NCBI GenBank assembly: GCA_025399215.1
Contig: MU621259.1
Coordinates: 1-37,789 of the forward strand
Reading direction: 5' to 3'
Source: Globomyces pollinis-pini
Taxonomy: Eukaryota > Chytridiomycota > Chytridiomycetes > Rhizophydiales > Globomycetaceae
DNA length: 37,789 bases
Shown: positions 12,775 through 31,657 of the stretch, in pieces
Layout: every line of letters starts with the position of its first letter
How positions within the stretch are numbered: position 1 is the first letter of the stretch
The notes under the pieces: generated by a model
Told to the model about the DNA's origin: nothing
The model's input: the letters and a program-made list of their open reading frames with translations, nothing else
Databases searched by the model: none
Position numbers and translations under genes: made by a program

Positions 12775-14671
12775 CTAAACACCAACATCATATAATGCTT
12801 TCACAGCAAGTACTGGATCCGTAAACATTGCCCGTACCCGATATAGATCAGGGTCATATTTTTCAAACAGTGTTGTAGTTTGAAGGTGTAAATGTAGGTA
12901 ATCTGGTATGTTATCATCATGAACTATCATTCGTAATGATGCTGAATGAATCAATCCAGCTAAAATGGAGAAAAATGCGAATACAAATGGTAAATTTTTC
13001 CCTTCTGCATTGTCTTTCAAAAATAAACGGGTTAACTTCGTTATAATAGAGGCGGACTCTCTACATATTAGTATTGAATCATGGTTGGGGTTGTGTTCAA
13101 ATTCGGTAACAAAACGGATTTTGTGTAATAGAATTCTCATCCCATAATAATATAGTTGAACATGTGCTAAAAACCATGGTGGTTGACTGGTTGAAGCAAT
13201 ATCAAAACTATATACATCAGATATATGATTCATCCAAGCCGGCAAAGAGCTGTTCCATTTTGTCAGTGCATTGTCTAGGCTTTCAAATGAATCATCATTC
13301 GATAGCTGGTTTTGGTTCTTTCTAATATATACCAAGATTCTTCTTGCAATGACGGTTAGGTTAAATGAATGGTACCAAAGCGATGTTTTGTAGTAGTCGC
13401 TATATTCTACATAAATAGGATCCAATGAAGGAGGTAGTAGTCTTTTGCCATTGTCTTCTGGTATAATAATTGGCATATGCGACACTAGAGCAAGGAAAAA
13501 ATCTCTTTCTAACAGACAACCCCAAAGCAAATCTTTAATTGTCTATTACTACATTAGCATCATTTAAATATTACAATTGCAACATGAGGCTCCATTTCCT
13601 TCCTTTCGCCAGACTTTGTTATCCAAGACAACGTAGATCCCATATCCAACCTTTGAAACAAGCGAACGGCATACGCTAAATAACTTCCCGAACCAATCAG
13701 CTTATTGTTATAAGATCCAGCATAAACAGCCATTAAAAAAACAGAAGCAACAGTAAATATGTCAAACTCTTCGTTTATACTTTGGTACAACCTTCTACAA
13801 TGAAAGTGATGAGTAACAGCAAGTGATTCTTTTGAATGTATCACAAATCCTTTTTCTTCTGTGGCCGCCAAAGAGTACTACATGTTAATCGAAGTGAATT
13901 ACCATTGCATGTAACATAATAAGTGGTATATCGTCAAAGTTTTTTCTAAACCAGGTTGGAGATAAGAAAGAAAATTTGTGATCAATGAATTTGAAATAGA
14001 CATCGAGCCAAGGGGAGGATACTCCATCAGGAAGTAAGATATTAGGGAATGTATCAGTTGCATCCAGCAGGGCACTGATTTTTAAAGGTGATGTAGTCAA
14101 ACGCTCGTTAGGTCTTTGTGCAGATATGGATTGAGTTTCTGTTTGGTCATAGATATTGACAGTATTAACCGACAATCTACTATGAAGTGGTATATAATTA
14201 GGATTAGTATAATTGATATCATTGTGTATTCCGTTTTGAAAATTCATTGATAATGTGTCATTGCTGTTGGTTGAATTATGTATGAATGTGTTATGTTGAA
14301 TTGTATTGACGGATACACTTGGATTGTGCACGTTAGAGAATGAGTTGCTATTCAACTGAGGTGGATTATTCATATGGAATGTATCAGGGGGAGTCATATA
14401 GGATAAGTTGTGCAAGTCCGGGGACGAATTAACAGAAGAATCTGATTGATTCTTGAGCAAACTTCCCTTTGGAGGACCTCTCTTTCTAATTGGAGTTGTA
14501 TATTTGCACTTTTATGATTAGAGATAGGAGCATTACCTCAATATTCTTTTTTGTACACCAATCACAAGGACTATCCCCAGTACATTTCTTCCTTTTTAAA
14601 GCACAATTATCGCATGCTTTTGTAGTTCTTTGTCTAACTTTTGTTCTCTGATTTTTTGAAGTTTTCTGCAT
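12775..14671 (-). CDS. Zn(II)2Cys6 fungal transcription factor (TF1)
   Basis: Four exons (14671-14537, 14508-13903, 13877-13575, 13542-12775) with introns of 28, 25 and 32 bp encode 603 aa. The DNA-binding cluster is at residues 20-46: CDNC, six residues, C, five residues, CDWC, six residues, C (C-X2-C-X6-C-X5-C-X2-C-X6-C). It is followed by a basic RKRGPPKGS linker. The middle is low-complexity (Asn, Ser, His). The fungal-TF middle homology region starts near PWLDVYFKFIDHKF and includes LLWGCLLERDFFLALVSHMP. The end, DPVLAVKALYDVGV, matches the ends of the other three array members. The intron in the cluster sits just before the sixth cysteine, unlike TF3 and TF4. Confidence 0.9.
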
Positions 14672-15031
14672 CGAATTGAAGGGTTCAACAAATTTCCACT
14701 TTGAAAATCACCAAGTGAAAAAGACGAAAATCGTGGAGTAAAATGAATTTGAAACACAAATCCTAAAGGGGATACTTCACGTCAGCATTGGCACAAACCA
14801 TCATGCCCTGTTTCATTAGTGGAGGGTTTGAATTGGTGGAATGCTTGTCTATTTGTACTTTTCAATGTATTTAAAAAAATAAGCAATTGCGTGTTTGTTG
14901 AGGTCATAGAGGATATACGAATAGTATATTGTAAAGTGTGGTTTTTTAAAAAGCGGTTGAATGAATGAAACTCCGTATGCCAAGGAGGAAAAGGGACATG
15001 TTAGGAAAACACATAGGTTTCAAATAGTTTA
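14672..15031. other. Intergenic between TF1 and TF2
   Basis: Upstream of TF1 and downstream of TF2, 360 bases. It must carry the TF1 promoter. I see no ORF, RNA gene or clear repeat in it. Confidence 0.5.
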
Positions 15032-16700
15032 TTATAGAAGATTTGAGAAAGCAACTGTAGCACTGGCAGGATCCAACAGCCATTTCCAAACGGTATTATT
15101 TCGTTCTCCCAATTTAGATTGATATGATTTGAATATCTCCATCATGTCTATATGTTCTTGAATAATATTTGTAATTGATGGATGTCTACCTTTGTACTGC
15201 ATACTCATGCAATGAACTATACCAGACACTAATGATAGGAATGATGAATATAGTGGAACATTGTTGAGTGTCGGGTTGACCTGCTTGATGCGCATTAAAA
15301 TATTACTGACGGTAGTTGCTGAATTGACACATAACTGTACAATTGAATTGGAGGATACAGTAGAAGTATCTCCTTCAAATGCTTTTACAAATGGCACTTT
15401 GTAGGTCAAGATAATAAGACAGTAGTATAAACAATGTAAAAACCCAACATTCCAATGAATGTGAGTTTGATAAGCAGGATCTTCAAATTCCGGAACCTGC
15501 TGCATCCAAATTGGCAATTTAGAAAACCAGTTATTGAGATCCATCGCCAATTCCCCTTCAGATTGTAATCTAATAGTAACTTCAGAGTTCTTTTGAATAG
15601 CTCTAGCCCTTGTAATGATTTTCCTTGCAATTCTAAGTAGTTCAGCTAAATACACCCAAGATCCGGATTGATACTCATCATTGTAGTATGGTGCATTTGG
15701 ATCTGGTAAGTAAAATGATTGATCAGATGTTAAAGTAAACGGCAGCTTTTGTAATATGGAAAGATAAAAGTCACTACAGTACAATAAAGTCCATAGTGAA
15801 GAACAAAGGCATCTTGAATTTTCTTTATCTGATCCCAAAATATTTCCATTTTCACCCATCCAAAAAATTTCATTGTTCCGATGGATTCCAATACTTTGAG
15901 CAAGTCGAATCACCAAAGCAAGATCGACTTCTCCTGACAGTGCAGATGTTCCATAATACGAAGCATATATAGATACATAGTAAATTCCAGTAATGGTGAT
16001 TGGATTTGGTTCATCAACATGCAAATCTACCAAAGACTATAAAACATTAGATAATCAAATCAAATACCTTGCAATAATTATAGTGTAGTTCTGCAACTGT
16101 ACATGGTTCATCCGCTTTCGGATATTTCAAATAGTAAACTTTTGCACTGACCATAGCATACATGGAATGCAACACAAATATAGGAATAAAATAGTAATTC
16201 CGTTTAAACCAAGAATAAGAGAGTATAGGATGCATAGGATGGTTCAATTGAAAGAAAGCGTCGATCCAATTAACAGACAAACCATTTAGCATTTGAATAT
16301 CTTGAAATGAATCATGAGTCCATTGAGTTAAATCAACATGAGGAAGATTGTGTGATGATTTTTCTTTGGTAAGAGGGAAGACTTGAAATGAATCTGGTTG
16401 AAGTGGTTGAGAGAGTAAGTCCATGATGTCTGGTGAAATACGATCCTGATTAATATTATTTTGACTATGTTGTAGATGAAGTTGTTCACTGTTCATGTTT
16501 GTGTTTATTTGGGTGACCAATGACTTCATTGTCACTGTGTCTTTATAGTTGAGTCTTTTTGTTTCAGTTCCCAGGTGGCCACCAATCTCCTGCTTTTGCT
16601 TCTTGCTTCCATTGAAACTCGTCATTGCTTGACAATGAACGTTTCCGATTGTTAATGGCAAGCAGCAGTCGCCATTTGCTTTTTTGTTCAATCTCCTCAT
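15032..16700 (-). CDS. Fungal TF-like regulator lacking the Zn cluster (TF2)
   Basis: Exons 16700-16068 and 16036-15032, with a 31-bp intron, encode 545 aa. The middle homology region is clear: NWIDAFFQLNHPMHPILSYS, then a conserved YYVSIYASYYGTSALSGEV block, FYLSILQKLPFTL and the array's terminal motif DPASATVAFSNLL. The N-terminus, however, has no CX2C...CX2C cluster. Only 148 bp separate the ATG from the stop of TF3 upstream, and no frame there encodes one. A second frame from ATG 16706 (MNEEIEQKSKW) runs over the start region but stops and cannot be spliced in frame. It may be a paralogue that lost its DNA-binding exon and now acts by dimerising with its neighbours, or one in decay. Confidence 0.75.
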
Positions 16701-16848
16701 TCATGCCATTTTTATTGTAAGTTCTGTTCATTATCTGTTCAGGCTCATTTCATCAATGGGTCTGTTTTCCAAATGGGTAAGGCGACACCAATTTGGCTAC
16801 CAATTGCACATTATATTAATAAATTGACCGATTAACGTTTTATTATCA

Positions 16849-19074
16849 TTACATTAAGTCCTTAAAAGCAATTGTACACTGAATGGGGTCTTTCAACCAT
16901 TCTTGTAGACACAACCTTGGTGTATCCAAGTGTGATAAATCTGATTTAAAGTATTCAATCACTTGAAAGTAAATTTGAAACGCTGTTTCTCGGTCTTCTT
17001 CAACTCCATAGATTCTACAAAGAATTGATTTGACCGCAGTAGCTAACACTGCCAAATATCCAATAAATGCCGGCACTTTTGAATAAGTGGGATTGTTAGT
17101 TTGAAAGGATTTTAAAATGGTGTTGATAGTGATTGCACTTTGATGACATTGTCGGACAATAGTACTATCATTGTTTTCTTCAATAGCCTCCAGAAAAGAT
17201 TTTTGGAATAATAAAATAATCAAACCATGGTATAGACAGTTCAGGTATCCCACAAACCACGATGGTGGGGAGATAGAATCATAATCGTTGGAGTATTCTG
17301 AAGTTGGTATTTTCATGTAGAAAGGAATCATGTTATACCAACTCAATAGATCTTGGTGAATCAATTTTTCCCCATACTTCCAATTTACATCTCCTCGACT
17401 ACTTGAATGTCTTCGAAAGCTCACCACTCTTCTGCCTAATCGTAATAAATCAAAGTAAAAGATTTCAATGTTAAAATGATTTGATCGACAATACGTACTA
17501 AATTCTTGAAATTTCGAATTTGAATTCACTATGTTTCGATAATCTAATGGTGGGGTACGAATTGTTTCATTCAGTATAAAAGGCATCTTTGTAATGATTG
17601 ACAAGTAAAAGTCGGATTCGTATAATGAAAGTGAAATTTCATACTCTAACACATTTCGAAATGATTCATCCAATTCAATTGATTTTCCATTACTTAACGT
17701 CCATGTTATATAATTAAAGTTCATGTATTGAGTGGCCCGTATTATGGAAGCTAGAATTGTACTAGCTTTAAAGTATGACCTACAAAAGTATGAAAAGTAA
17801 ATGCTTTTATAATATCCAGCAATATTTAAAAACATGCTGATATCTTCATCGGTTGTCATGATTATCATTCCATACTTCATATGTAAATCTGCCGTTTGGT
17901 TGAATGAATTTGGTTCTTCCATTTGGCTTAGCTTAGCCAATAATAATGCATACAATATATGATTCAAATATTTTGGTATAATTTGTGAATGCTCCAAAGT
18001 CCAGCGTGGGAGCATTAATGGAAATTGTGGATGAACAAATTGAAAGAAAGCCTCCAACCAATTGATTAGATTCCCATTTAATGGTGATTTGATTGATATC
18101 AAGTCTAGTTTCTCAGGTTTCTCGGCAATTGTTGCAATGAATGCTTGTAAAGGATTAGTGTCTAGTCTATTTGGTGTGGTTATTGTTCCAAAGTTTTGGG
18201 TTCTTTTCATGGAAATATGAAGATCAGATAGAAACTTTGGATCGAGGGATTGATCCTGATTTGGGGTGATATACGAATTGGAAGGGTCGTCCAATATTCT
18301 GTCATTTGATTTATGACTTTGTGTACTTAAAGATGCAACAGAAGTAGAAGAAGCTTGTCTGTGACGAAAAAAGTCGGCACCTGTAATGAAATTGTTGGAT
18401 TGTCCTTGGAACAACAAACTCGGCCTGTTATAGGTCTTATTGGTTAGCTCAGGTGAATACAACTCCTCCACAGTGTGCGACCTTTGAAAATGGCGTGTAG
18501 GAATCTGATTTATCTGCACAGTACTAGTAGACGGTCGAAGCTGTGGTCCAATTTTTTGGGAATCTAAGCATAAAGAACGCGACTTATTTTACCGTCTTGG
18601 ATTGTAAGCATTGAATTGCCAACAGTCGAGCGTGATCCAGCCAATACTCTTGTTGAAGAAAATTCAGGGCTTGAATTAAGATCCAAAAGTATTTTTGCGG
18701 TTTTAGCATTATCTGTGTCAACCTCAGAAACACTCTCATTAGTGATTGGAAGAGTATTGAACATCTTGGTTCTAGTAGGAGAACTAACTGAGGGTCTTGC
18801 ACTTGTTAATGTTCCATATGATGAGGCTCTGATTGATTCTGGTGACTTACAACTGTTGGTTGTTGAAATAGAGTCGGTTGAAACAGTCATTTTTGATGGA
18901 CCTCGCTTCCTTGAAGATTTAGTATAGGTACAAGCTATATTGCGAGCTGTACAACTGCTACATGGATTCATTCCTGTACATTTCTTTCTCTGTAATAATA
19001 AAATTTAACAGTAATACCATTCTGGAGCAGTTATCACACGCTTTGCTGATCCGGGTATGCCTTTGAGTGTTCAT
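16849..19074 (-). CDS. Zn(II)2Cys6 fungal transcription factor (TF3)
   Basis: Three exons (19074-19018, 18989-18593, 18563-16849) with introns of 28 and 29 bp encode 722 aa. Exon 1 is only 19 codons and ends inside the cluster, after CDNCSRM. Exon 2 begins RKKCTGMNPCSSC, completing C-X2-C-X6-C-X5-C-X2-C-X6-C. Then come SRKRGPSK and a long Ser/Thr-rich region. The middle homology region contains NWLEAFFQFVHPQFPLMLP and YESDFYLSIITKMPFIL. The end is DPIQCTIAFKDLM. It is closest in layout to TF4. It is predicted to be a nuclear DNA-binding regulator; the target is unknown. Confidence 0.9.
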
Positions 19075-19284
19075 TAACAGACTTTCGTATGGTAAATTGT
19101 CACTAAAAAGTATATATCCACGTTAACTATCTCCATGTGTTTACCAATACAAATTCTATATCCTAATTACAGTTTACAGGAAATTGCTCAACTTCAGTGT
19201 AAAACTATAAAATACCAAAAAAAATCAATAATCAAAAGTATGTTTAGTTTGATGGCAGTGTATTGTGTAAACTCTATCAAAGAC

Positions 19285-21359
19285 TTAAACAATCTTGGCA
19301 AATGCTTGTAATGATAATTCTTCATTCTGTAACCAAATCTTGATTGCACCAGATCTTTTATCATCATGACTATGGAGTTTTCTAAAATATTCAATCACAT
19401 CAATATGTAAATCAATCATCTGAGCAATTTCATTAATTCTGTTTCCATCAGTTGTTAATTTTCTCAAAATCGAATGAATGGCACCTCCAACAGTTGCAAA
19501 ATATCCCATTGTGGATGGGATATAATCATATTGAGGATTATATCTTTGAAAATATCGCAAAATTTTGTAAATATGTTCTGCAGAGACTTTGCAAATGTAA
19601 ACACATGGAGAACTGTAAAAATGTGTTTGGAATGTTTCAAGAAACGATCGTTGATGGAGTAGTATCATGGAAGTATAGAAGAAGCTATGAAGATACAATG
19701 TCATCCATTCAAAATATTTTAATGGCATCGTACTTTTATCAAAGTTGTCATAGGTTGTTTTCATTTCCATTGGTAAGTGTTCCAACCAATGGTGTAATTC
19801 TTGATTAATTAATCCTTCTGTATATTTCCAATCATCATTTCTATCAAAATTTGTACTCCGTAGAAATTCAAGTATTTTTCGTGATATTGTTAATAGGGAT
19901 GATGTTAATAGTTCAATACTGAAATTGTTGGATCTACTATAATGGCTTTCGGTGACAAAATTAACGTCATTTTCAAGATATATAGGGTTATGCTTTAGTG
20001 GAATAGGTTTCGTTCCACTGGATAATACAAATGGTAATCTTGTTGCTAATGACAGAAAAAAGTCTCGTTCATAAAGTGCCAACCAAAGTTGGTACAAATG
20101 TGCTTCATATATTGCATGATCCATTTGTCGAATTTGCCCATCTGGATTTACCCAAGGCATAGGACTTTCTGTGGTGATGAATTGCAATCCTCTAACTGCG
20201 CCAGCACAGATAGAGGAACCTTTCAAATATGAATGACCATACAGTGATGCATAAATTGATTTGAAGTAAAAAGCAATCAACAAAAAGATATTTGTGTCAT
20301 CTAAACTAGGTAATAGCAACTCTGTATATCTATAATGTAATTCTCCAGAATCACACTTTCTGTTTGGATCAATTAACTGTTGAATTCTTGATATGACTAG
20401 AGCGTACATGATGTGTAGTAGCTCTAATGGTAAATCATCAACATTTTCCATTGTCCATTTCGGTAATAAAACTGGATGGGATGGATGTACATATAAAAAA
20501 AATGCTTCTATCCAAGGTCTATCAGTTCCATCAGGCAATTTAATTGTTGATGCTTTATCAATTTCAATGATAATGTTTGGCATCACTTGTAACACTGTTT
20601 CTAATGGCAATCTTGGATATTTTTGATACTTGAAGAGAGGTAAAAATTCAACATCAACGTTATTAAATAGATTCATGGACTGCATCTGGTTGTTAAAGTC
20701 ACTGGATTGAGATGTTTCAAGATCCTCTGCCGATATTTTTCTTGTCGATGGTCTTCCTTCATAAATCGCGTCAACTGAATTGTTTGAACTTGCTACCGAC
20801 ACAGAATTCGATCGATCATTAATCAATTGATTGAGTTTCAAAATTGGAATCCCAATCAGACTATTACGGTCCACGCTTTCTGAATCTAATGAACTATTTG
20901 CACTAGAAACTTCATTGATAGAGAAACCTTTTTTCATTTCAAAATTTGCTGAATGGAATCGATTTAAATCATTCAAATCTGGCTGCATTGGTGCTTCCGT
21001 TAAATCTTGCAAGATAAAGTTAGATGATTGGATGGGAAGGGTTTCATCTGTAGAGAATGTATATGGTGTTGCTCTTCGGTTGTGTCTCAGCAGTGTTCCT
21101 AATTGCTGTGTAAAAGATATTGGTTTCATTTCATTGTCTAAATTTGTATCTTGTCGCAAATCATTTGAACTTCCCTTATTTGGACCTCGTTTTCTGGATG
21201 GTTTGTTAAATGTACACTCAATTCCCTTTGCTGTACAGTTTGCGCAGGGAATTCCGCCAGCGCATTTCTTTCTCTATATTTAATGAATTTGTTATTGGTT
21301 ACATTTTGAGAGCATAAATCACAAGCTTTTGATGCTCGTGTGGACCTATTTGGTTTCAT
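19285..21359 (-). CDS. Zn(II)2Cys6 fungal transcription factor (TF4)
   Basis: Exons 21359-21303 and 21273-19285 with a 29-bp intron encode 681 aa. The first exon is 19 codons, ending CDLCSQN; exon 2 resumes RKKCAGGIPCANC, giving the same cluster and the same intron position as TF3. It is followed by SRKRGPNKGS. Middle region: PWIEAFFLYVHPSHPVLLPK, YFKSIYASLYGHSYLKGSSI and YERDFFLSLATRLPFVLSSG. The end is NEELSLQAFAKIV. I chose the ATG at 21359 because the apparent upstream start is GTG. It is the most upstream member of the four-gene tandem array. Confidence 0.9.
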
Positions 21360-25011: not shown

Positions 25012-27289
25012 TTACTTTCGCTTTTTTCTGCTTCCCATTTCTTGGTCGAAATTGGATCGTTTTTTCTTTCCTCCACCACTGGACTTTTCTGCCGCTGGTT
25101 TGAATGTAGTGATTTTCTTTGGCTTAAGTGATGATTTGACAGAACGAGCGGCAATTTTTTGTTTTGCTTGTTCAACTTTATCTTCTTCTCGTGCTTGCAT
25201 TTGTCGTTTCTTTTTACGAGATAATCCATCTAATTTTCCACGCTTTGGAGTATCTTTGATGATAGGTTCACTTTTTTTTGTTGATTCTAAAATTAGTTTA
25301 AGATAGAATACCTTTAGCGGCAGCCTTTTCGGTCTCAGATTGAAACCAAACTCTTGCAGGACGAGATTTGATTTCATCTTCATACTTTAAGATATTTTCC
25401 GCCTTATTCACTTCCATTTCAGCTTGACTCATCAATTTATCTTCTTTTTCTTCTTCATATATCTCTTTGATAGTTTCTGTTAGCCCTTTTAATACTTCTT
25501 CATATTTTTGCACAACCTTGGAAGGTACAATACGATGTTTCACAACATCCCTTGAATTTTTCAATGCAAGTTTTAATATGATTCTATCTTGTTCTCCTAC
25601 AAGACTCACAGCTCGTCCAGATGCATCTCCTCTGGCAGTACGACCACAACGATGGACATAGATACTATAGGTATTGGGCATATCATAATTGATGACGGTC
25701 TTAATACCTGATATGTCAAGACCACGAGATGCTAAATCTGTACATAAAAGGAAATCGACTTTCTTATCCCTAAATTGCTCCAATGATTCTAAACGCTATC
25801 ACGAATATTAAACAATACAAAAAATACCTGCAGTTGTGTAAGATTACCGTGTAACTCGGCCGCTTTCAAACCCAGTAATCCAAAGACAATCTTCATATGA
25901 TGAGCAGCTGCTTTACTTCGAAAGAAAATAAGAGTTTCGGATGGATAAGTTCTGGAACATAAGGCAGCCAAAATAGCTGGTCTTGCTTCTTCTCGGTGTC
26001 CTCTGATACGAATGAATTCTTGAATCAGCTTGCTTGTCATTGATTGTGCATTATCAACAAACAATCTAATTGGTCTTTGGAGTGATAGTTTAATCAATTC
26101 ATCAATCTAACTATTAGTAAACTGTATTACATTTTCAGTCATCGTTGCTGAAAATAACATAGTCTGACGCTTTTTGGGTGTGTTCTTGATAATTTCATTT
26201 AATTCATCTTTAAATCCATCTTCTAAAATACTACTAATAAGAATGAAGTAAATCTTACCGATCCGCTTCGTCAATAACCAAAATCTCAACATGATCCAAC
26301 GAAAATGATCGAGAATTGTGTATATGATCAATCAATCGACCTATAGATTTAAAAGAACATTCATTTACCTGGTGTGGCAATAACAACATCAGGTAATTTT
26401 CTTAATTCGGCTTCCTGCAGTTTTGTGGACAAACCACCAACACAAAGACATGCCTGAATTGTACTGAACTTTGATAAACTCATGGCAACTGAGTGACATT
26501 GAGCTCCCAATTCTCTTGTAGGAACCAGAATAAGTACACGGATTGCAGGTGTCGATTTTGGTCTAAATAAAAGTCTTTCAAGAATTGGAATCATAAATGC
26601 AGCAGTTTTACCAGACCCAGTTATTGCAGAACCACAAATATCTCGTCCTTGTAAGGCTAGAGGAATGGTTTTAGCTTGGATATCCGTTGGTTTAACCTAA
26701 ACAATTAGCTATGCTCATTAAAATTAAAGAGGGATTGTCGTAAAAATGTAAAACTTACAAATCCCATTGCTGCAATTGCTTTCAAAATTGGACGAGATAA
26801 CGAGAGCGAAGTGAAGGCATCAATTTCGTCATCATTTACAGGGGCAGGTGCTTCTTCAAAATATTCTGCAATTCTTTTATCTTTTAAAACATCTTCTGGG
26901 TCATTTTCATCATCAACCACTGTAATATTTCGTCCCTTTGAAACGTGACGCTCTAGTTCCGCATCATCTACTTCATCGTCTTCATCATCACCAGCATTTT
27001 CAATGACATCTGACTCTAGATTATCATTCAAATGTGCAACATCTTCTCTTCTCTTTTCGATTTTTTCATCCAAAGTTGTTGCAGTTTTTTTGGATTGTTT
27101 GGCAGTTTGCTTTGCATTTGTAAAATCCCAATGATTATTTGGTAATGCCCAATCACCACCTCCATCAGCTTGAAAAGTGAAATTAGAATTGAGTTTCTCT
27201 TTGTTATTTGGAGTAGCTTCTTCTGTAGAGGAGTCTGAGAGAATTGCTTCATCATCGTCTTCAATAGTAGTTAAATTGAGTGGATCCAT
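25012..27289 (-). CDS. DRS1: DEAD-box RNA helicase DRS1/DDX27
   Basis: A nucleolar ATP-dependent helicase needed for 60S ribosomal subunit maturation. Seven exons (27289-26759, 26696-26369, 26340-26259, 26230-26131, 26106-25828, 25795-25312, 25286-25012) with introns of 62, 28, 28, 24, 32 and 25 bp encode 692 aa (yeast Drs1 752). Order: acidic N-terminus; Q motif ([19 protein letters not shown]); motif [22 protein letters not shown] at about 310-313, split by an intron directly after it; SAT; ARGLD; and [10 protein letters not shown]. The C-terminus is lysine-rich ([20 protein letters not shown]), typical of DDX27. It shares with NOL6 a T-tract upstream of the ATG. Confidence 0.93.
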
Positions 27290-30790: not shown

Positions 30791-31657
30791 TTATTGCTTC
30801 TTTTTGATTTTCTCGGTTTTTGATTTCTATATATAAGAATATGATAATGAACCTTGGAGTAAAGCACAATTTGGGCCAAAATCAACCCATTCAAAACTGA
30901 AGCAGCTACATAACCCGCAATCAATTTTGCATCAGGTACTTCTTGCAATGTAGTTCCAATTCTAGCAACTAAACTATAAATAGTAAACCAATAATACCAG
31001 TTCCGGCGAATTGCAAAAAGGTTGTGATGATAGAGAGTTGTCCAGTAGATTTGGCGGTAAAGTTATTATAGATCTGAGGTAATTTAGAACCCACAGAAAT
31101 GAATATAGTCGCTAGCTGTAATGTATTGATTAAACTGTGAGAAACAATATCTTTATCTAATAAAGAATGCACAAGCAAAGCTGTTGTAACTGTGGAAACA
31201 AATGCACCAACATATCGCTTTGAAAAAGTGAAAATCAAGAACATGATGATGTGATTTTGTAGAGCGATAAAAGCACCTTGTAAGGTTGTTAGCTAGAAAA
31301 AAAAGTACCTAGAATATAAGTAATAGTGTAGGATACCTAAGATTAAAGTATGAAAAGCATACCCTCGCCATAAGTAGAGAATGGGTTCCCCAATCTAAAG
31401 TTGTAGGCCAAAGTAATCAAGATAGACAATGTTTCCAGGATAAGAGACAAGAGACTGAGACCTGCAACAGACTGACTACGAATGATGTTGAATATTTGAG
31501 GGAATTTCACCATTACAGCTCCGCCAACAATTCCCACCGACAGACCCTTGGATACCGCAAGCTTATAGCAATGTAAAGATGCAAAATCCAAGGCTAAGAT
31601 AGTTTCTGCACATTTCCTGGTGGTTAAAAGCGCAAGTAATTCTGTAATCGTTTCCAT
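30791..31657 (-). CDS. MPDU1: MPDU1/SL15-like PQ-loop protein
   Basis: An ER membrane protein required for use of dolichol-linked mannose and glucose in N-glycosylation and GPI synthesis. Exons 31657-31363, 31276-30998, 30968-30853 and 30826-30791 encode 241 aa (human 247). The first intron is the 86-bp compound one (separate entry); the others are 29 and 26 bp. The two PQ-loop repeats are visible: VMVKFPQIFNIIRSQSVAGL and GSKLPQIYNNFTAKSTGQL. After splicing, the join YGEG-AFIALQNH aligns with YGEALFLMLQ-type sequence of the family. The last exon gives the KIKKKQ tail, like the Lys-rich end of human MPDU1. The ATG is at 31657; codons upstream of it in frame do not include another ATG. Confidence 0.92.
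31277..31362 (-). other. Compound intron of MPDU1: three tandem ultrashort GT...AG units
   Basis: The 86-nt MPDU1 intron 1 splits exactly into 31362-31337 (26 nt), 31336-31309 (28 nt) and 31308-31277 (32 nt). Each begins GTA and ends AG, and they touch with AG|GT at both junctions. Removal of each unit leaves a fresh GT at the exon edge. The third unit contains CTAAC as a possible branch site. Homology to MPDU1 fixes the outer borders; the inner junctions are read from sequence only. Confidence 0.7.

Follow-up and report, generated by a model that had tools for sequence, protein, structure and literature searches.

In the MPDU1-like gene of the chytrid Globomyces pollinis-pini (Rhizophydiales), an 86-nt intervening sequence reads as three GT...AG segments laid end to end, which raises the question of whether it leaves the transcript as one intron or as three. 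We addressed this question in the window, that is, the whole stretch of DNA analysed here (37,789 nt; contig C170), and in the genome at large, which comprises 18.5 Mb in 459 contigs. Recursive splicing, known mostly from long introns, is usually regarded as a device for very long ones and is difficult to detect. With an estimated 100 or more chains of tiny introns, a compact genome would open it to direct tests, including how many times one junction can be respliced, in which order units leave, how the exon junction complex and proofreading respond, and by what means units of some 27 nt that lie end to end are defined by the spliceosome.

The MPDU1-like gene and its 86-nt array

The gene lies on the minus strand, with its ATG at 31657 and the stop codon that closes exon 4 at 30791. 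The label MPDU1 is taken from the names of homologues, such as mannose-P-dolichol utilization defect 1, and Pfam places a PQ-loop match (PF04193) in the gene. Exon 1 (31363..31657), whose 3' end is TATGGCGAGG, is followed by unit 1 of the array (26 nt, 31337..31362, GTATGC...CTTAG), unit 2 (28 nt, 31309..31336, GTATCC...TCTAG) and unit 3 (32 nt, 31277..31308, GTACTT...ACAAG), and then by exon 2 (30998..31276), which starts with GTGCTTTTATC and reads GAFIALQN from the join G|GT GCT TTT onwards. An ordinary single intron of 29 nt (30969..30997), called by the gene finder and required by the join to the deposited protein, separates exon 2 from exon 3 (30853..30968), and another of 26 nt (30827..30852, GTTCATTATCATATTCTTATATATAG) precedes exon 4 (30791..30826), which encodes the C terminus ...KIKKKQ. 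The latter intron was placed by hand and is required for the deposited C terminus; the gene finder had missed it, so the sampled set of introns used below is incomplete. Joined in this way, the exons reproduce the deposited 241-aa G. pollinis-pini protein P0001 letter for letter. A search of the whole window against Rfam at the gathering threshold gave no matches to known RNA families.

The preliminary description had divided the 86 nt at 31362..31277 into units of 26, 28 and 32 nt, each GT...AG, and the sequence bears this out, with AG|GT points at 31337|31336 and 31309|31308. Its frame-consistent join also holds: removal of all 86 nt (GAG-G|GT-GCT) restores GEGAFIALQN and yields P0001. The depositor's model likewise drops the full 86 nt and leaves the number of steps unspecified. 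Whether related proteins carry residues at this site had been proposed as a check, and none of 11 homologues aligned with P0001 (12 rows in all, the 11 being picked from 119 other listed homologues) has an insertion at GEG|AFI. Each of the seven ways of retaining at least one unit causes a frameshift or introduces a stop.

The units were said to be of normal intron size, which agrees with the called introns no longer than 45 nt: across 237.8 kb there are 180 of these, ranging from 19 to 39 nt with a mode of 29. They are mutually unlike by eye. The predicted regeneration of a donor also follows from the letters, as removal of any unit would leave the GT of the next one at the exon end. The expectation of about 0.3 AGGT per 90 nt agrees with the base composition; complete tiling into GT...AG units is the better test of chance. 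The proportion that tiles in the same way, into units of 23-39 nt, is 1 of 20,000 for mononucleotide shuffles, 12 of 50,000 for random sequences matched to intron composition and 53 of 20,000 for dinucleotide shuffles that keep the terminal GT and AG; widening the permitted units to 20-42 nt raises the last figure to 119 of 20,000. The MPDU1 locus taken alone thus provides good, not overwhelming, evidence of tiling beyond chance. The rate in ends-held shuffles weakens the weight of this single locus and leaves that of the class untouched, and the question that the locus leaves is settled by the recurrence of such arrays across the genome.

Arrays across the genome and in conserved genes

To sample the introns of this genome, we ran a purpose-written gene finder over 237.8 kb, consisting of the window plus the first 40 kb of contigs C1-C5. 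With a length model it called 103 genes and 274 intron positions, which divide into 257 single introns of 20-42 nt, 14 longer single calls and three arrays. The arrays are that of MPDU1, one at C2:6657-6748 (28+32+32), in a gene whose joined protein matches the deposited model exactly, and one at C4:38789-38848 (27+33), called by the gene finder alone. Arrays thus hold 2 of 233 intron positions in C1-C5, and 3 of 274 when the window, which was picked for its array, is included. No single introns were called at 33 or 36 nt and those of 30 nt were scarce, and array units of 30, 33 and 36 nt exist; the deficit among the single introns may come from poorer detection of introns whose length is a multiple of three, or from selection against such lengths. 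The same gene set holds two internal exons of 5 nt, and a gene resembling dihydroorotase by eye (locus L026; G000:C5:18733-18829, plus strand) has an apparent 5-nt micro-exon, TGATG, flanked by a pair of introns of about 30 nt.

Genome-wide pattern searches counted AG|GT junctions at intron spacing, a multi-junction chain being counted repeatedly. The control was the reversed pattern, which differs in composition context; a search with free spacing gives the better estimate of background. A two-junction pattern matched 412 times (270 reversed), a general three-junction pattern 285 times (69 reversed), the three-junction pattern limited to GTAA 89 times (27 reversed), and the sharpest pattern, TAGGTAT..YAGGTA..YAGG, 107 times (7 reversed). 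For the GTAA and TAGGTAT patterns, 189 of the 196 counted matches merge into 139 loci, some of them accidental, and we estimate that about 100 real array loci remain after subtraction of the 34 control matches. Patterns that require YAG overlook arrays such as that of MPDU1.

With spacing left free at 16-46 nt, the pattern matched 115 times against 43 reversed, a substantial control count. Among the 100 listed matches, 165 of 168 distinct units measure 23-39 nt and 133 of 168 measure 25-32 nt, resembling single introns. The concentration at 23-39 nt suggests that few of these listed matches are accidental, despite the control count. Two other repeats were noted during these searches. A 23-nt minisatellite, CAGGTACTTTAAGGCTTCCGCAA (G000:C2:114761-114856, minus strand), fits the array pattern, looks unlike introns and is probably a false positive, and at G000:C270:11346-11451 (plus strand) near-identical units, GTAATCATTGGTGAT..TAG, some of them 21 nt and hence below the usual intron size, possibly represent either an array or a plain repeat.

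We then considered 52 array loci (12 + 40), drawn from the pattern lists and biased toward at least three junctions. The strict gene finder called arrays in 6 of the 52 and, with a lowered intron penalty, in 43; since the lowered penalty itself favours introns, we relied on a removal test with a control, in which GTW..AG segments of similar length were removed from the same loci. When arrays were removed, an exon crossed the join for 30 arrays in 29 loci, and no exon spanned it in the other 23. Removal raised the gene-model score for 28 of the 30 arrays and lowered it for two, against a rise in 116 of 979 control removals, and 27 of the 30 stood at or above the 95th percentile of the controls from their own locus; the test favours arrays, whose ends were the best of several options, as control ends were not. 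The 30 arrays contain 2-12 units and are 56-365 nt long in total. The test was unable to join certain conserved genes (for example L035 and L078), and a few automatic array boundaries were wrong (for example L036 and L079). Boundaries were set by hand in L029, L032, L033, L035 and L036, and those of seven more loci were taken from a looser run of the gene finder.

Nineteen loci were joined, some with hand-set boundaries, and ten with conserved-looking flanks were submitted to Pfam. A single match spans the join in seven of the ten (PhyH, UQ_con, tubulin, epimerase, aminotransferase, kinase and Ras) and falls short of doing so in three, the MCM match starting at the join and the HD and adh_short matches not reaching it. 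The longest array, with 12 units and 365 nt, interrupts a MARK/SNF1-type kinase at NVKIT|DFGLSN, where the kinase match spans the join and the best solved homologue, MARK3, aligns without a gap at that point. PHYHD1 is interrupted by 10 units (285 nt) at MLIFK|QPDIGGEV, where the alignment with the best solved homologue has no gap at the join; its start was set by hand, the automatic run giving one unit more. Alignments with the best solved homologues likewise show no gap at the join in an HD-domain, SAMHD1-like protein (5 units, 142 nt, VSYY|VYLGATHHRFEH), where the HD match does not reach the join, and in Ran (3 units, 92 nt), where the Ras match spans. In an MCM8-like protein (6 units, 163 nt), whose MCM match begins at the join, a solved homologue covers the join with a one-residue gap nearby. 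Two further genes were placed by Pfam family only (UQ_con and tubulin). The first, UBE2G1-like by eye, has 5 units (155 nt); the second, gamma-tubulin-like by eye, has 4 units (108 nt), and its locus contains another array, of 26+26. From the sequence evidence, the array architecture is almost certainly real and recurrent.

Origin and removal of the arrays

Most likely, the 86 nt of MPDU1 consist of three ultrashort spliceosomal introns, each complete and separated from the next by a zero-length exon, they belong to a class of arrays of 2 to about 12 units, and the units are excised separately. Each unit would be recognised by intron definition and removed individually. Since each AG|GT junction would be the acceptor for one unit and the donor for the unit after it, a valid junction would remain whichever unit was lost, and removal would not have to follow a set order. 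Arrays may grow, at least in part, by tandem duplication of an intron-sized unit through slippage or unequal exchange, a change that would be nearly neutral because each copy removes itself, and old copies would diverge in sequence while retaining their own splicing signals and length. On balance, we favour the broader reading that an ultrashort intron can act as a self-removing repeat unit, with intron positions lengthening as whole introns are duplicated in tandem ("intron minisatellites") and transcripts undergoing as many as a dozen splicing events in succession, through zero-length exons, at one exon-exon junction.

The likeness of neighbouring units bears on how arrays arise. Compared with random pairs, 15 of 100 adjacent pairs (which overlap within chains) lie above the 99th percentile and 27 above the 95th; one pair consists of identical 32-mers. 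None lies above the 99.9th percentile, a cut-off that equals 1.00 as random pairs can share an array. Tandem duplication of units is thus indicated by the sequence for a minority only, and the more diverged remainder may reflect either divergence after duplication or insertion of unrelated introns. That arrays stem mainly from repeated insertion of unrelated introns at AG|GT, for instance by reverse splicing into a splice junction, with removal still proceeding unit by unit, strikes us as possible though unlikely. It would account for the 85 of 100 adjacent pairs at or below the 99th percentile and for the seemingly unrelated units of MPDU1, whereas the 27 and 15 pairs above the two percentiles, and the plainly near-identical neighbours in arrays at C12, C37, C68, C168 and C194, speak for local duplication.

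The reason first offered for stepwise removal was that the spliceosome of this species might handle only about 25-38 nt, and the long single introns bear on this. The 14 calls above 42 nt include one that runs across a stretch of N and one that merges the MPDU1 gene with an adjacent gene; eight of the 14 were tested in Pfam. A match spans the join of single introns of 84 nt (RHD3 GTPase), 82 nt (ESF1 RRM), 113 nt (PCI) and 70 nt (U1-70K N terminus). It also spans that of a 104-nt intron (Sec10), but this one may conceal more structure and was left uncounted. For a 224-nt intron in the ATP synthase alpha gene (G000:C4:34615-34838, plus strand), free of internal AGGT, the Pfam match does not span the join, and solved ATP synthase alpha chains align across it without gaps. 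The join of a 62-nt intron was not spanned by its match, and that of a 76-nt intron had no match at all. The 62-nt intron, in a DEAD-box helicase gene (window 26697-26758, minus strand), is about twice the usual size and contains no AGGT; its join fits a known motif. The proposed limit is therefore wrong, as single introns of 70, 82, 84 and 113 nt, bridged by Pfam, and of 224 nt, bridged by solved homologues, occur here without internal AGGT; longer single introns are spliced in this genome, and a length ceiling fails as the reason for removal in steps. The case for abutting introns with zero-length exons is good without it: such arrays recur at an estimated 100 or so loci, reach 12 units and bear branch-like motifs in units other than the last.

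These motifs were scored with a 7-base branch motif learned from the 257 single introns (approximately [AT][CT]T[AG]A[TC], with its end mostly 4-10 nt upstream of the 3' end). In non-last units a branch point would be needless if the array left in one step, and 64 of them were taken from pairs whose likeness does not exceed the 90th percentile of random pairs. Their best score averages 3.82 against 2.30 in shuffled units (z=6.0), and a strong motif lies 3-12 nt from the end in 42% of them against 16% of shuffled ones (maximum 33% in 200 shuffles). The same holds for 45% of second units, for 61% of single introns, which are the set from which the motif was trained, and for 27% of random genomic GTAW..TAG segments, some of which are real introns. 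In MPDU1, unit 1 carries TTTAATC 4 nt before its 3' end (63rd percentile of single introns), unit 2 a weak ACTTATA at 6 nt (12th percentile) and unit 3 GCTAACA at 10 nt (90th percentile). Branch-like motifs in non-last units thus lend support, short of proof, to the use of internal units.

Removal in one step is a serious rival to splicing unit by unit, though we judge it improbable. It holds that the outermost donor pairs with the outermost acceptor, the inner AG|GT points being leftovers of duplication that are unused or used occasionally. Single introns of 70-224 nt occur, so lengths of 86-180 nt are no obstacle to it, near-identical units would carry their junctions passively, and the deposited models fit it equally well. 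Against it, 73 of 100 adjacent pairs are at or below the 95th percentile of random likeness, yet spacing and branch-like motifs are kept; no internal AGGT occurs in the 711 nt that seven long single introns of 62-224 nt add up to, whereas the 30 arrays, which were selected by pattern, contain 116 junctions in 4,367 nt; and occasional use of the inner sites in MPDU1 would give frame-shifted or truncated products. Of these seven, all but the 224-nt intron were also tested for tiling, and none of the six divides into GT...AG units as the MPDU1 86 nt does. Nor does any of the six decompose into nested introns, where 0-80 of 200 shuffles per intron can be decomposed, a number of introns too small for this to carry meaning.

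Chance, meaning an ordinary 86-nt intron with two AGGT accidentally at unit spacing, could draw on the expected 0.3 AGGT and on the shuffles that tile, and is extremely improbable given the genome-wide enrichment of such arrays and their presence in conserved genes. Inner segments acting as micro-exons or alternative exons are just as implausible: very short exons do occur here, as the two of 5 nt attest, but the 11 aligned homologues carry no residues at the site and every retention disrupts the frame or brings a stop.

Relation to known intron systems

Splicing unit by unit would make the arrays a variant of recursive splicing, which proceeds through ratchet points or zero-nucleotide exons (PMC8605326, PMC6110457, PMC2773006, PMC10156609). 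There, AG|GT is juxtaposed inside an annotated single intron, removal regenerates a donor and nothing is left in the mRNA. Such juxtaposition is found at two points in MPDU1, and regeneration of the donor can be read from the letters in MPDU1 and in other arrays. Known cases fall mostly in long introns, in line with a table of lengths (PMC10156609), and lariat work reports recursive splicing in some introns below 1,000 nt, where conventional lariats are preferred (PMC2773006 / PMC10156609). The arrays differ in that their units are mostly 23-39 nt, each a complete intron, in chains of up to 12, and each of the 30 totals 56-365 nt. Since the long-intron setting of known cases is absent, we regard the arrays as a candidate variant of recursive splicing rather than a proven member.

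Dual-specific splice sites offer a second parallel. In the human polyubiquitin gene UBC, tandem AGGT sites can each be used as 5' and 3' splice site and are tied to tandem repeat expansion (PMC10809524), both of which recall the arrays. In UBC the repeat is the coding ubiquitin monomer and isoforms keep a variable number of monomers (PMC10809524), whereas here the repeat is non-coding and of the size of an ultrashort intron. Dual use of AGGT in the arrays would be allowed by the sequence, the units on both sides showing intron signals.

Among fungi, stwintrons, the spliceosomal twin introns of Ascomycota (PMC5639578, PMC9024468, PMC12403724), are likewise complex intervening sequences removed by consecutive splicing reactions, whose intermediates were demonstrated through cloned amplified products (PMC5639578). 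There, an internal intron splits the donor, branch site or acceptor of an external one (PMC5639578), whereas here no unit interrupts another. We rejected nesting of the stwintron type for MPDU1 and the other arrays inspected, whose units abut at AG|GT with the signals of each unit intact.

Short introns of about 25 nt, for which intron definition has been proposed, are described for Paramecium, in a paper whose text contains no occurrence of "tandem", "adjacent introns", "consecutive" or "zero" (PMC5014332). The words "Globomyces", "tandem" and "stwintron" are absent from the main text of a survey covering 644 fungal genomes. Among the literature matches listed, mostly open papers, we found no account of abutting ultrashort spliceosomal introns, and an earlier mention elsewhere is possible.

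Intron gain through local duplication or slippage is described for Cryptococcus CNN00420 (PMC2395259) and potato RdRp (PMC4974935), and the arrays would share this mode of origin. The Cryptococcus gene acquired additional introns when a repeat that contained an intron expanded (PMC2395259); here, the repeat is exactly one intron, the copies abut and the protein is unchanged. The arrays suggest a stepwise route by which introns could multiply and lengthen, neutral because the copy of a whole intron would be self-removing and would not alter the protein. Annotators of genomes should be aware that one annotated intron can be several.

Elsewhere in the window, positions 12775-21273 on the minus strand hold a run of similar long reading frames that appear, by eye, to be fungal zinc-cluster transcription factors in tandem.
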